DNA from: Phycisphaerae bacterium
Lineage (GTDB): Bacteria; Planctomycetota; Phycisphaerae; JAJVII01
DNA: 64,000 nucleotides
Assembly (NCBI GenBank): GCA_022072085.1
Contig: JAJVII010000041.1
Coordinates: forward strand, 1-64,000
Direction: 5' to 3'
The notes below the pieces were generated by a model, which was given only the letters and a program-made list of their open reading frames with translations, did no database searches and was not told the origin of the DNA. The translations under genes were made by a program, and so were the position numbers. This document shows positions 6,779 to 26,663 of the stretch, piece by piece; within the stretch, counting starts at the first letter, position 1; each line of letters opens with the position of its first letter.

Positions 6779-6807
6779 CGGGCGCCTCAATGCGGGTGTT
6801 CTCTTCT

Positions 6808-6975
6808 CCCTCTCCCTCGTCTGCGAGGGAGAGGGCCGGGGCGAGGGTGTCCTGGGAAACTGCGGAAGTCGTTGCCTCGGCCGAACGTATTCGTGAACTG
6901 TCACCCTCACCCGGCCCCATGTTCGCTGGCGCGACCGTGGGGCCACCCTCTCCCTCGCAGAGGCGAGGGAGAGGG
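6808..6975 (+). repeat. Composite inverted repeat with two CCCTCTCCC hairpins
   Basis: The 352-bp gap between mlaD and dacB holds no gene. Hairpin 1 (6808-6835) has 12-bp arms CCCTCTCCCTCG/CGAGGGAGAGGG and a 4-nt loop. Hairpin 2 (6946-6975) has the same arms and a 6-nt loop. The segment after hairpin 1 (6835-6848) is imperfectly complementary to 6901-6918, so the two hairpins are linked by a further inverted pair. The architecture is that of an intergenic repeat (REP/MITE type). The rest of the gap, apart from the repeat at 7101-7125, shows nothing I recognise. Confidence 0.75.
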
Positions 6976-7100
6976 AAGAAGGGCAGTCCCTGTTTGATCT
7001 CCGGCGCAACTTCAACTTCCGCCGTTGCCCCTGGGGCTGGACTGGATCGCCCCGGTTGGCCGATGATAGGGTGTTCCTGATCCTTCAGGTTGCCCGTGAC

Positions 7101-8621: not shown

Positions 8622-8654
8622 GAAGTCAGGGACGCAGGGAACTTTTCATGACTT

Positions 8655-8781
8655 GCCGCTGAGACGCTGAATCGCAGAGGGGTGATGGTTTCCGGATGAC
8701 ATTGCGGCGGAGTGTTTCAGTTGCTTCCGTTGCCCGTCTTCATCCAAGTCGCATGCCTCAGCGTCTCTGCGCCTCAGCGGC
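8655..8781 (+). repeat. Imperfect palindrome, CGCTGAG/CGCAGAGG word type
   Basis: Outer arms GCCGCTGAG (8655-8663) and CTCAGCGGC (8773-8781) pair perfectly. The flanking arm sequence (to 8680, and from 8756) is made of shuffled copies of the same words on both sides. It lies 33 nt after the dacB stop, between dacB and a convergent SDR gene. The 219-bp gap 8622-8840 contains nothing else recognisable. Confidence 0.6.
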
Positions 8782-8840
8782 GAACTGAATCTTGAAAGAC
8801 TTGCACATTCCTGTCGAACTGTGGCGCCCGTCCCGCAGGG

Positions 8841-14006: not shown

Positions 14007-14106
14007 AATTTTGGATTGCAGATTTGAGATTGCAGATTGAAGAACATCCGGCTGGGGCGGCTTGGGCGATCCCCAATCAACAATCTGCAATCTAGAATCT
14101 GAAATT
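14007..14106 (+). repeat. Imperfect palindrome, GATTGCAGATT word type
   Basis: Left arm 14007-14040 and right arm 14077-14106 are inverted copies made of the word GATTGCAGATT. They surround a G+C-rich centre. It starts 4 nt after the lysS stop and ends 30 nt before the next start. The arms are far more A+T-rich than the surroundings. Confidence 0.75.
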
Positions 14107-15884: not shown

Positions 15885-16022
15885 CATCACCGCAAAGGCG
15901 CAAAGGGCGCAAAGAGGGGCGAAGGATGAGAGTGATCGGAATGCGACTCGCAGACGGGTTCTGAATCTCTGATTTCTCGTAAAGGACTCTTCTCTTTGGG
16001 TCCTTCGCGTCTTTGCGGTGGA
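15885..16022 (+). repeat. Imperfect palindrome, CACCGCAAAGRCGC word type
   Basis: Left arm 15885-15917 (TCACCGCAAAGGCGCAAAG...) and right arm 15994-16022 (...CGCGTCTTTGCGGTGGA) are inverted copies. The element starts 5 nt after the permease stop and ends 10 nt before the ATPase ATG at 16033, so it fills the junction between two genes that should be co-expressed. Confidence 0.8.
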
Positions 16023-16032
16023 ATCTGACTTG

Positions 16033-22226: not shown

Positions 22227-22237
22227 GAACCGGAAGG

Positions 22238-22363
22238 ACAAACGCAGAGGGACAGAGGGGGAACAGAGGTGCAGAGGAGGATTGCAGGAACGGGGCGAAG
22301 GCAGAATTCCGAATCGAAAATCACTCTGTCTTATCTCTGCCTTCTCTGCTCCTCTGCGTTCGT
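22238..22363 (+). repeat. Imperfect palindrome, CAGAGG word type
   Basis: Left arm 22238-22280 is built from AGAGG words (AAACGCAGAGGGACAGAGG...). Right arm 22324-22363 is the inverted counterpart (...GCTCCTCTGCGTTCGT). It begins 11 nt after the DUF58 stop and ends 23 nt before the next ATG. Confidence 0.7.
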
Positions 22364-22386
22364 CTTATCTTCTTCCTGAGACGCAC

Positions 22387-24054
22387 ATGGCCAAAGAAAT
22401 TGAAATTCCTCAGCCGCGAAAGCCGGTCGGACCCGGACGGCTGGCCCTGCGCATTTTCGGCTTGGCCGTGGCGCTTCTGATCGTCTGGCACATCATCGAA
22501 TGGTTCACCGTGTCCAGCAGCCGCATCGAGGTCGGCGCCGCCACGACCGTGCTGACCGCTCCGCTGGACGCCCAGGGTGTCCCGGATTATCGGGCTGCGC
22601 TGAACGCGGAATACGGCCGCGGCGCGACGCCCGCCGACAACGTGGCCGTCGCCCTGCTCGACGCATTCGGGCCCGACGTGCTCCCAAAGGATAAGGCCGT
22701 CCGCGCCGACGTGCTGGCTCTGCTGGGCGTGGCCGAACCGCCTGCCGGCGGCGATTACTTCACGGACGTTGCGTCGGCTGCTCGAATCCTCGAAAAGGGG
22801 ACCGCCACCGAGCCGGCCTCCGACGAGGCCGTCAAGGAAACCGCCGACTCGATCAACCGCGACCTGGACGCCGCGCTGCTCGACCCCTGGACCGCCGGCG
22901 ATCACCCCCTGCTGGCGGCCTGGCTGGAGATGAACCGCGCTCACCTGCCGGCGATCCAGTCGGCCAGCCGACGGGGCCGCTTCTTCTGGCCGCTGATCCC
23001 CGATGACCTCTCGCCCGGGTCAGCCGACGGCCAGCCGGCTGACCCGCGCTACTGGAACATGGTTCCTGACGCCGGCTGGGCCCTGGTCGCCGACGCGATG
23101 CTCCAGATCGGGCGCGGGCAAGCGGCGCCGGCCATCGACGACCTGCTGGCTGCCCATCGCCTGGCCCGGCTCCAGGGGCAGGATCCGACGCAGCTCGGCC
23201 GATTCATCGCCCTGCTGCTTCGCTGGCGGGCCGCCCGCGGGGTCACCTGCCTGGCCCAGCGCGAGCTGCTCGACGGGCCGACGGCCCGCTCGCTGCTGGC
23301 CAGCCTGAACGCGCTGGACGAGCTGCCGCCGATGGCGTCGATTGTCGATCACGGGCAGCGGCTGGTCGTGCTGCGTTCGCTGATCGCCCAGTCGCATCGC
23401 GAGACCTGGTGCGACTGGAACGCGATTCTGAGGCGGACCAACGGCTACTTCGACCAGCTCGTCGCCGCCGGGCGGATCGCGGACTATCCGGAGCGGGCCA
23501 AGGCCTTCGAGGAACTGCTGAGCCGCCAGCCGCCCGGAGTCGGCGGCGGGGCGGTGTTCAAGTCGCTGGTCGCCCGGCTGGTGCTGACCGGCCCGACGCT
23601 GCGGCAGACGCTCAGCGGCGGCTACGCCTACATGCTGTTCGCCCAGGCGTTCGGGCCCAACGTGGTCGGCGTCTCGCGGGCCGACGAGCAAGCCCGCATG
23701 GCCGACATGGTCTCGCGGCTTGCGTTGTCGCTGGCGGCCTACAAGGCCGACCACGGCGGATACCCCGACGCCCTGGCGGCGCTGGCCCCGGACTACGTGC
23801 CGGCGGTTCCAGCCGACTGGTTCGTCAACCAGCCGCTGCACTACGCCCGCGAGGGGGCCGGCTACCTGCTCTACAGCGTCGGAGCGAACATGACCGACGA
23901 CGGCGGCCAGATGGACGTCGTCCGCCGCGACCAGAAGGACGACAAGGGCCCGAACAGGGACGACATCGCCGTCCGCGTGGCCCCCGCCGCCGCCAGCCAG
24001 CCGGCGGCGGAGATCGCGGGCGACCAGGAGACGACGACGGCGCCGGCCCGTTGA
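22387..24054 (+). CDS. Unknown membrane-anchored protein of the MoxR operon
   Basis: 555 residues, no family recognised for most of it. One N-terminal helix (about 22-40, LALRIFGLAVALLIVWHII) anchors a large extracytoplasmic domain that looks mostly alpha-helical, with several A/L-rich repeats (about 110-440). The end of the domain (LAAYKADHGGYPDALAALAP, then VPAVPADWFVNQPLHY, LLYSVGANMTDDGG) matches the C-terminal pattern of type II pseudopilin-like proteins (YpdsL..L.P.yl...P.DpF.g.pL.Y...g.gf.lYSvG.n..DdGG), although no prepilin N-terminus is present. Its position between DUF58 and BatA-like genes suggests a role with the MoxR machine. The tail (about 515-555) is polar and low-complexity. 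Confidence 0.8.
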   Translation: MAKEIEIPQPRKPVGPGRLALRIFGLAVALLIVWHIIEWFTVSSSRIEVGAATTVLTAPLDAQGVPDYRAALNAEYGRGATPADNVAVALLDAFGPDVLPKDKAVRADVLALLGVAEPPAGGDYFTDVASAARILEKGTATEPASDEAVKETADSINRDLDAALLDPWTAGDHPLLAAWLEMNRAHLPAIQSASRRGRFFWPLIPDDLSPGSADGQPADPRYWNMVPDAGWALVADAMLQIGRGQAAPAIDDLLAAHRLARLQGQDPTQLGRFIALLLRWRAARGVTCLAQRELLDGPTARSLLASLNALDELPPMASIVDHGQRLVVLRSLIAQSHRETWCDWNAILRRTNGYFDQLVAAGRIADYPERAKAFEELLSRQPPGVGGGAVFKSLVARLVLTGPTLRQTLSGGYAYMLFAQAFGPNVVGVSRADEQARMADMVSRLALSLAAYKADHGGYPDALAALAPDYVPAVPADWFVNQPLHYAREGAGYLLYSVGANMTDDGGQMDVVRRDQKDDKGPNRDDIAVRVAPAAASQPAAEIAGDQETTTAPAR

Positions 24055-24060
24055 CCGGAG

Positions 24061-24212
24061 TTCACCGCAAAGACGCGAAGAACGCGAAGAAGAGAAGACG
24101 GGGATTGAACCGCCAAGAGCACGAAAGGCACTGACGATCTCATTCCCTTGGTGTCCTTCGTGTTCTTGGTGATTCAATTCCCATTCTTTGCGCCCTTTGC
24201 GTCTTGGCGGTG
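24061..24212 (+). repeat. Nested palindrome: one repeat inside another
   Basis: Outer arms are 24061-24089 (TTCACCGCAAAGACGCGAAG...) and 24186-24212 (...CCCTTTGCGTCTTGGCGGTGA). Inner arms are 24104-24131 (ATTGAACCGCCAAGAGCACG...) and 24148-24179 (...TCGTGTTCTTGGTGATTCAAT). The outer pair is of the same type as 15885-16022. The element starts 6 nt after the upstream stop and fills the gap before the BatA-like gene. The remaining 93 nt before the ATG at 24306 show nothing else. Confidence 0.8.
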
Positions 24213-24305
24213 AGGGCTTCTCCGCCTTGACGCCCGCGGCGGTCAGGGGTAACGTCGAGTGATCGGCGATCGTGCCACCCCCGCGACCCGAAGCGGTGCC
24301 GCCTG

Positions 24306-26663
24306 ATGAATCCGACGCTGGCCATCACGTTCGTTCACACCGCCATCCTGGGGGCGGCGGCGGCGGCTGTGCTGCCGGTCATCATCCATCTGCTGCTCCG
24401 CTCCAAGCCGCGGCTGGTCGTTTTCCCGGCCATGCGGTTCGTCCGCCAGACGCACATGGCCAACGTCAGCATGAACCGCATCAAGCACCTGATCCTGCTG
24501 ATGATGCGGATGGCGGCGATCGCGCTGATCGCGTTCGTGCTGGCTCGGCCGATGATCCGGACCGAAGGCTCGATCCACCTCGGGGCCAAGGAGCCGGTCT
24601 CGGCGGTAGTCATCATGGACGCCTCCGGCTCGATGTCCTATCGCGTCGCCCGCGAGAACCGCCGCACCCGCCTGGATGTCGGCAAGGACAACGCCATCCG
24701 CCTGCTGGAGAAACTCCCCGACGGCTCGCAGTCGGCGGTGCTCTGGCCGGGTCGGCCGACGGCGGACCTGAAGGTTGCGCCGGGGGTCAAGACCTCGGTC
24801 GATCTGATCCAGGAGCTGTCGGACAGCCCCGAGGCCCAGGACAAGGGGCTGGCCAGCTACCGCCGCGGGCAGCGGGCGAACATGGTCCAGATGGTCGACC
24901 AGGCCTACACGATCCTCAAGGACGCTCCGAACAAGAAGCACGAGATCTACATCGTCAGCGACCGCGCTCAGGACAGTTGGTCGGGGCTGAGCCCTGGAAC
25001 CTGGGCCAGCCGGGACGACGTAAACGTCTTCCTGCTGGACGTCGCGGCCAGCGACAACCAGGACTTCCTGATCTCGTCGGCGCGGTGGGAGGCCGAGGTC
25101 ATCAGCCCCAAGCGGCGCGGGCGGCTGACCGTCGAGGTCCGCTCCAACGACCTGGCGGCCGATTTGCGGACGCTGTTCCTTCAGATGCAGCAGGTCCACG
25201 CGGAGCCCGGCGGGCCGGCCCGGGGCGCGGACGCCGGGGAGGCGGCCACCGAGACCGGCAAGCTGCGGGCCGAGGTGAAGCTGCCCGGCAAAGCGACGAC
25301 GGCCGCCGCGACGTTTGAGCTGCCGCTGCTGGCGCCGGGGCTCTACGCGGGCAAGGTCTGGATCGACGACGAGGACGAGATCGACGAGGACAACGTTTAC
25401 TACCTGGCGCTGGAGGTGGGCAACCTGCCGCTGGTGATGGTGATCGAGAAGGACGTCGCCCAGGAGTATTCGACGCCGCGCTTGGTGCGGGCCGCCCTGG
25501 CCCCGCCGCACCTGGAGGTGCACGGGGAGGCGAAGTTCGACCTGGTGCGGATTCCGGCGACGGACTTCGTGGTCAAGCGGCCCCAGGACCGCAAGCTCCT
25601 GGAAGGGGCCCAGGCGGTGATACTGGCCGACGTCGATGCCCTGGTCGAGGGGCAGTGGACGGCGCTGAAGGACTACGTCGGCGGCGGGGGCACGCTGGTC
25701 ACACTGCTGGGTCCGACGACCAACGCCCAGTCGCTGGTGACGACCGAATCGCTGGGCGTGCTGCCGATCCGCGGGCTGGTGGGCAGGATCCAGTCGCCCG
25801 AAGGCGTCCAGCCCGCGCTGCCCGACTTCACGCACAACGCTGTCATGCGGACCTACCTCCAGAACGACCTCAAGCCGATGCTCGACCGCGAGAAGGTCTA
25901 CCAGTACTGGGCGATCCAGGACGCCGACAAGAAGCAGCCCGGCGTCGACACTCTGCTGCATCTGGCGGGCGCCAACCCGGCGCCGCTGCTGCTGGAGCGC
26001 CAGTTCGGCGCGACTGGCGGCCACAGCCTGCTGCTGACCACCTCGCCCCAGCCGGCCTGGAGCGAGTGGATCCAGATGGGTTCCAACACCTGGACCACGC
26101 TGCTCTACTCGATGGTCATGGGCTACAACCGCGGCACGCAGCAGGCCTACCAGTTCGTCATGGACGCCAAGACCAGTGAGACCGTGCTGACCGCGCCACC
26201 CAGCTTCCGCGTTGGCGACGCCGTCGAAATCCCGCCGGACGGGCGGAAGCGCGGCTCGCTGACCGTCGGCGCCACCACGGGCAAGGCGGCTCTGCACACG
26301 CAATACACCGGCGTGTGGGAAGTGGATTTCCAGGGGGCCAACGGGGCCACGCGGCCGGTCATCTACGCCGTGAACGCCGACCCGCACGAATACGACCTGG
26401 TGAAGATCGACGCGGACCAGATCGCGGCCGGTTTCCCGCGGGACCGGTTCATCCTGGTCCAGGACCCCTCAGACCTGGAACGGGGCCAGGCCCGGGCCCG
26501 CTCCAGCCAGGAGGAGATCGGCGCCCTGGTCGGCTTGGCGTTGCTGCTGCTGTTGATCGGGGAGTCGTTCTTCTCCAACCGCTTCTACCGTCGGCCCGCG
26601 GCATCGGCCCTGGACAGGCCCGGAGGGCTGCCAGGGCCCGGGGCGGAAACCGACGCCGCCTGA
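24306..26663 (+). CDS. BatA-like VWA membrane protein
   Basis: 785 residues. The N-terminal BatA region (PF07584) has two helices: about 10-30 (including LPVIIHLLLRSKPRLVVFPA) and 61-80, with the usual HLLLR...FPAMRFV spacing. A VWA domain follows with MIDAS DASGSMS (105-111). Further on is a glutamine-amidotransferase-like stretch (YVGGGGTLVTLLGP) and a last helix at about 738-757 (IGALVGLALLLLLIGESFF). This is the layout of large planctomycete BatA proteins. It should be one of the VWA clients of the MoxR ATPase, at the inner membrane, with most of the mass outside. Confidence 0.87.
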   Translation: MNPTLAITFVHTAILGAAAAAVLPVIIHLLLRSKPRLVVFPAMRFVRQTHMANVSMNRIKHLILLMMRMAAIALIAFVLARPMIRTEGSIHLGAKEPVSAVVIMDASGSMSYRVARENRRTRLDVGKDNAIRLLEKLPDGSQSAVLWPGRPTADLKVAPGVKTSVDLIQELSDSPEAQDKGLASYRRGQRANMVQMVDQAYTILKDAPNKKHEIYIVSDRAQDSWSGLSPGTWASRDDVNVFLLDVAASDNQDFLISSARWEAEVISPKRRGRLTVEVRSNDLAADLRTLFLQMQQVHAEPGGPARGADAGEAATETGKLRAEVKLPGKATTAAATFELPLLAPGLYAGKVWIDDEDEIDEDNVYYLALEVGNLPLVMVIEKDVAQEYSTPRLVRAALAPPHLEVHGEAKFDLVRIPATDFVVKRPQDRKLLEGAQAVILADVDALVEGQWTALKDYVGGGGTLVTLLGPTTNAQSLVTTESLGVLPIRGLVGRIQSPEGVQPALPDFTHNAVMRTYLQNDLKPMLDREKVYQYWAIQDADKKQPGVDTLLHLAGANPAPLLLERQFGATGGHSLLLTTSPQPAWSEWIQMGSNTWTTLLYSMVMGYNRGTQQAYQFVMDAKTSETVLTAPPSFRVGDAVEIPPDGRKRGSLTVGATTGKAALHTQYTGVWEVDFQGANGATRPVIYAVNADPHEYDLVKIDADQIAAGFPRDRFILVQDPSDLERGQARARSSQEEIGALVGLALLLLLIGESFFSNRFYRRPAASALDRPGGLPGPGAETDAA

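Follow-up and report, generated by a model that had tools for sequence, protein, structure and literature searches.

REPs, according to PMC3733652, are 20-40 bp long, and most of them have a GTAG or CGTC foot. REPs and BIMEs (with RAYT transposases) share several properties with the hairpins that are the subject of this analysis: they are intergenic palindromes, they are found near stop codons, and other elements insert into them. The hairpins considered here, however, are 110-150 bp long and have arms made of repeated words. The block of principal interest, at 24062-24213 of the window (the window being the whole 64-kb stretch of DNA that was analyzed), has ~30-bp arms in 152 bp and an ACCRC foot, which places it outside the REP/BIME class. 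The source genome has three Y1_Tnp genes, and none of them has a word-arm closer than 1.5 kb.

The 23S rRNA IVS with S23 (PF05635) presents another likeness, that of a gene in a hairpin; in Coxiella the IVS sits in 23S helix 45, according to PMC4990558. The PF05635 genes encountered in this analysis also lie between inverted word-arms, but these hairpins are outside rRNA, and the ~7-bp words that flank PF05635 differ from the arms in the window. The block at 24062-24213 lies between protein genes, has no gene in its loop, and is not an IVS of this kind.

The more apt comparison is with MITEs. The block at 24062-24213 works like a MITE: it is short and gene-less, with terminal inverted repeats and several dispersed copies, and it is nested; a sibling family of hairpins (the CTGAG family, described below) adds target duplications to the likeness. 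There are also differences: 1) The arms here repeat a short word, and the word is specific to each copy, yet the two arms of a copy match. 2) No known transposase is linked to these hairpins. 3) Target duplication is clear in five of ten CTGAG copies, whereas the inner element of the block has only an imperfect GATTGAA/GATTCAA. A MITE also shares its ends with an autonomous transposon; the arms here are common to GxxExxY loci, although transposase activity is not proven for GxxExxY.

Words similar to these surround GxxExxY genes. The arm grammar and the inverted arrangement are the same, and in some genomes so are the words themselves; the difference is that the loop of the element in the window is without a gene. 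A search of the literature, confined to open-licence papers, yielded no description of these arms and no tie to GxxExxY; because of that confinement, absence is weak evidence of novelty.

A stacked hairpin between two genes of an operon

The source genome (5.49 Mb) is in 72 contigs, of which the window is contig 13. The block at 24062-24213 separates two genes that run in the same direction in a MoxR - DUF58 - unknown - BatA/VWA operon, with its outer arm starting about 7-8 nt past the upstream stop codon. The features of this part of the window, and two related elements upstream of it, are as follows.

15888 to 16020, no strand assigned: single un-nested outer-type element (inverted repeat I8; profile E 2.1e-4 and 4.1e-3), 9 nt past a stop codon
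22237 to 22364, no strand assigned: word-arm hairpin with CAGAGG words (inverted repeat I10, 77% over 31 nt), located one gene before the block in this operon
22282 to 24054, plus strand: upstream gene, function unknown, no Pfam match; stop codon just before the outer arm
24062 to 24091, plus strand: outer element, left arm, TCACCGCAAAGACGCGAAGAACGCGAAGAA (inverted repeat I2; GxxExxY-arm profile E 3.1e-5)
24100 to 24131, plus strand: inner element, left arm, GGGGATTGAACCGCCAAGAGCACGAAAGGCAC (inverted repeat I1; profile E 0.27, 7.8 bits, sixth-best of 64 kb)
24132 to 24150, no strand assigned: loop of the inner element, without a gene (coding is ruled out by its short length)
24151 to 24182, minus strand: inner element, right arm (inverted repeat I1; profile E 0.069, 9.7 bits, fifth-best)
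24184 to 24213, minus strand: outer element, right arm (inverted repeat I2; GxxExxY-arm profile E 1.2e-4)
24306 to 26663, plus strand: downstream gene, BatA/VWA protein (Pfam BatA E 9.9e-14)

The initial annotation had described two imperfect inverted repeats, one inside the other, and a repeat search of the window bears this out, with coordinates that agree to within a few bases: the outer pair (24062-24091 / 24184-24213) is 83% complementary over 30 nt and the inner pair (24100-24131 / 24151-24182) is 81% complementary over 32 nt. The two are stacked and fold as a single long hairpin, with z about -8: the 161-nt block gives -46.5 kcal/mol as DNA (z = -8.0), its opposite strand gives -79.6 as RNA (z = -8.65), and not one of 200 shuffles folds as well. 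The arms are built of words of ~9 bp (CGCAAAGA and CGCGAAGAA in the outer pair; CGCCAAGAG, CACGAAGGA and CACCAAGG in the inner), the left and right spacers are unequal in length and in sequence, and coding sequence is absent from both loops. The assertion that the outer copy is of the same type as an element at 15885-16022 was likewise correct: 15888-15916 / 15992-16020 pairs 86% over 29 nt. An intrinsic terminator (a G+C-rich stem followed by a T run) is absent from the transcribed strand of the block, and comparison with Rfam 15 families at the gathering threshold yielded no match, only sub-threshold miRNA-hairpin matches.

Might the hairpin have been selected in place, as a transcript stabilizer or terminator between genes of an operon, without any insertion? 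Its location directly past a stop codon and its very stable fold are what one would expect of such an RNA-level structure, but there is no T run behind the stem, the terminator scan is empty on the plus strand, and there is no Rfam family to which it belongs; moreover, the arms are members of a dispersed repeat family, and in the same-family genome the ortholog has no hairpin. On balance this explanation is quite improbable.

The window contains other intergenic hairpins without a gene, each with its own word: at 22237-22364 (CAGAGG), 14008-14105 (GCAGATT) and 6802-6979 (CCCTCTCCCT). In 12 of the 13 hairpins inspected in the source genome (L029-L037 and those of the window), the stop codon of an adjoining gene lies no more than 19 nt from the start or the end of the hairpin.

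Arms common to GxxExxY loci

GxxExxY (TIGR04256 / PF13366) is a PD-(D/E)XK family: it matches Pfam PDDEXK_3 with E 1.4e-34, and its alignment keeps D68, E78-x-K80 (where the E reaches at least 90%) and Q92-xxx-Y96. All six GxxExxY genes of the source genome have inverted word-arms on both sides, with a word specific to each copy. The generality of the arrangement was gauged with a flank score, which compares an upstream flank with the reverse complement of a downstream flank, either of the same gene (matched) or of different genes (mismatched). For 34 GxxExxY loci of the class, the matched mean is 45.8 and the mismatched 23.7, with 24 loci above the 95th percentile of mismatched pairs; for 60 loci in named genomes of many phyla (archaea included), the values are 39.9 and 20.0, with 45 loci above the same percentile limit. 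A control gene (BatA loci) scores 20.7 matched and 21.9 mismatched. The genes of PF05635, which encodes a four-helix bundle, resemble GxxExxY genes in this respect (40.7 matched vs 20.6 mismatched at 31 loci), with words of roughly 7 bp. By this comparison of flanking sequences, GxxExxY and PF05635 genes usually sit between copy-specific word-repeat arms. (PF05635 loci, L058-L065 and L166-L194, are usually present in many copies per genome, with inverted ~7-bp word arms; the words, GAGTGCT, AGATTTC, CGAATGT and others, are copy-specific and common to both arms.)

A profile HMM of 82 GxxExxY arms, all from other genomes, served to search the 64-kb window on both strands; it replaced a degenerate-regex arm finder that generated too many false matches. 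The top six matches are the four arms at 24060-24213, in the order > > < <, and two arms at 15887-16024. Their E values range from 3e-5 to 0.27, and they are the only matches in the window with E < 1 (the next has E 1.4); the inner arms score weakly, at 7.8 and 9.7 bits. The specificity of the profile at 7 bits is indicated by 72 arms, vs 3 in reversed sequence, over 1,652,945 bases of the source genome; around PF05635 loci it finds 2 arms in 117 kb. The matches to the four arms of the block start at model positions 3-6, which gives each arm its own 5' end and accordingly makes the inner pair a complete element rather than the continuation of a long arm. Chance or an assembly artefact, for which one could cite the draft state of a genome in 72 contigs, is hardly credible as the source of the block in the face of a fold with z about -8, profile matches of E < 1 restricted in 64 kb to these four arms and 15887-16024, and dozens of related loci.

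Judged by its sequence, the family is one of ~30-bp arms, each consisting of three ~9-bp words (TTNACC-RC-NNAG-NN-CRC-NNAG-NN-CRC-NNAG), inverted on two sides. The arms at 24062-24213 belong to it in that they match the profile from GxxExxY flanks of other genomes; what GxxExxY loci have and the block lacks is a gene between the arms, its loop being non-coding. The block is, at best, a putative gene-less derivative of the GxxExxY word-arm hairpin family. What links it to GxxExxY is the similarity of the arms, and the same words are found at some GxxExxY loci: CGCAAAG arms at L096, CGCCAAG arms at L206 and L218.

(Side notes on arms elsewhere: A CRISPR array at G000:C5:51586-61671 (L364/L365) has 153 repeats, and its spacer 134 (ACCGCCGAGGCGCCAAGAGCGCCAAGGCGGAAT) resembles a word-arm, scoring 10 bits against the arm profile; it is one in 152 and may be a chance occurrence. 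A 124-bp stretch with arms, next to a GxxExxY gene, differs in presence between the congeners L125 (G048:C9) and L155 (G086:C36); its 13-bp junction overlap makes recombinational deletion possible as well as insertion.)

Nested insertion or a composite unit?

If the 152-bp block were a constant unit, it should be encountered at many loci. It is not: 150 genomes of the class contain one full-length copy, this one, and in 1.65 Mb of the source genome 24062-24213 is the only > > < < cluster of 40. Its two constituents are found separately in the source genome, outer-type copies without an inner pair at C1:12228, C1:204962, C6:69039, C13:15887, C37:62585, C57 and C63, and inner-type copies alone at C9:85066 and C5:880-967.

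The flanking BatA gene was used to look for an orthologous empty site, but the sole same-family genome (47% protein identity) is without a hairpin and offers nothing alignable; a relative at that distance cannot define an empty site. A scan of genome contigs with BatA turned up nothing. An empty site in genus g14 was sought via locus L135, and the orthologous flank is absent from the other three genomes. (L135, in G084, and L133, in G039, share a 1787-bp stretch that is 100% identical across two genera, likely because of a shared contaminant or a misbinned contig.)

Half-units, in which an outer arm lies beside an inner arm, do recur: at C10:95658 in the source genome, at three G125 loci, and at one locus each in G126 and G001, with 77-83% identity. 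In these, the mirrored partner is absent, or the arms are interleaved (L137), or they form direct arrays. In G125, L126 and L148 are direct A-B-A-B arrays of alternating arm types, without inverted partners and with GACGGGGATT-type spacers. Is the block then a composite element, in which outer and inner word-arms were first joined head-to-tail and the pair was later either copied in inverted orientation or moved whole? The recurring A-B half-units argue for this, and so do the G125 arrays, whose spacer resembles the left spacer of the window's block. Arguing against it are the failure to find the full four-arm block elsewhere in 150 class genomes, the separate occurrence of the outer and inner types, the unequal length and sequence of the block's left and right spacers, and the varied topologies of the half-units (half, interleaved or direct array). 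A composite origin is unlikely. The outer and inner arms may nevertheless have a shared history, as the recurrence of half-units and the interleaved rather than nested arrangement at L137 suggest: either this or one type's preference for the other is likely.

Nested insertion is the best reading of 24062-24213, and probably the right one. The earlier proposal of insertion into an older copy is thus upheld insofar as complete separate elements exist and a sibling family nests (as described next), but an orthologous outer-only locus was not found, and the half-units weigh on the other side. The inner element is flanked by GATTGAA/GATTCAA, an imperfect direct repeat; this is also self-complementary, and for that reason does not prove a decayed target duplication.

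Palindromes in palindromes elsewhere in the genome

The process of nesting can be seen in a sibling hairpin in the same genome, also represented in the window.

8645 to 8796, minus strand: CTGAG-word sibling hairpin copy, 152-bp core; other copies lie inside other hairpins

The source genome has at least 10 CTGAG copies, with a core of 152 bp (151 bp in one copy). Six of 10 copies lie inside other word-arm hairpins, with the host assigned by reading the flanks: CACAGAG hairpins accommodate three (C1:284832, C7:34538 and C10:21235), and the others are in a GAG-word hairpin (C10:76101), in a CTGAG hairpin (C5:137016, L368), and in a GGATT-word hairpin (L387, C9). Hairpins constitute well under 1% of the scanned sequence, and random placement would therefore be expected to give far fewer nested copies than this. 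Five of the 10 have exact flanking direct repeats of 6-8 bp, and in each the duplicated sequence opens with GAG: GAGAACA, GAGAGG, GAGGTGAA, GAGACGC and GAGGAT (for the last, the longest computed match reads CTGAGGAT at shifted ends). GAG also forms the core of the words that make up the arms.

A second family has CACAGAG arms within longer terminal repeats. TA is present on both sides in 24 of 26 inspected copies, and eight of the 26 have clearly palindromic flanks. Taken together with the nesting of CTGAG hairpins, this indicates that insertion of palindrome into palindrome has happened repeatedly in the source genome. Copies of the CTGAG and CACAGAG types are near-identical, while those of the 24062-24213 type have diverged. 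(About 30 near-identical ~160-bp copies in G000, at L298, L320, L322, L379 and L400 among others, have the ends TAYTGA...TCAATA with CACAGAG arms inside; some of these sit at the TA of the palindrome GCGGCTAAACGTTTAGCCGC.)

A proposed mechanism and its implications

How might the nest at 24062-24213 have been made? We infer that it was by insertion: a gene-less, MITE-like, non-autonomous hairpin, the outer element, would have inserted just past the stop codon, and its loop would then have received another complete element belonging, broadly, to the same family. The likeliest autonomous or mobilizing partner would be the GxxExxY nuclease gene, which is bracketed elsewhere by the same arms, making GxxExxY the candidate mobilizing nuclease of the hairpins. 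The arm word may double as landing site: that CTGAG-family target duplications start with GAG suggests that existing arms act as landing pads, and the likeness of target motif to arm word would account for the frequency of nesting. By analogy, the AAG-word family presumably obeys the same target rule as the CTGAG family.

A broader proposition is offered tentatively, as a possibility that we would not yet favor: GxxExxY and PF05635 genes may be the genes belonging to two undescribed and very widespread types of mobile hairpin, in archaea as well as bacteria. The arm word of these hairpins would also be their insertion target, so that they insert preferentially into one another and give rise to nested and arrayed palindromes, with 24062-24213 as a two-level example. 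At issue is a large group of intergenic hairpins that are at present anonymous; they would become tied to an uncharacterized nuclease family that crosses phyla, with a mobilizer that can be tested, and there would be a rule for the stacking of palindromes in palindromes, namely that elements land at the arm word. If this is true, many intergenic repeats, along with many GxxExxY and four-helix-bundle genes, could be re-annotated as mobile elements.
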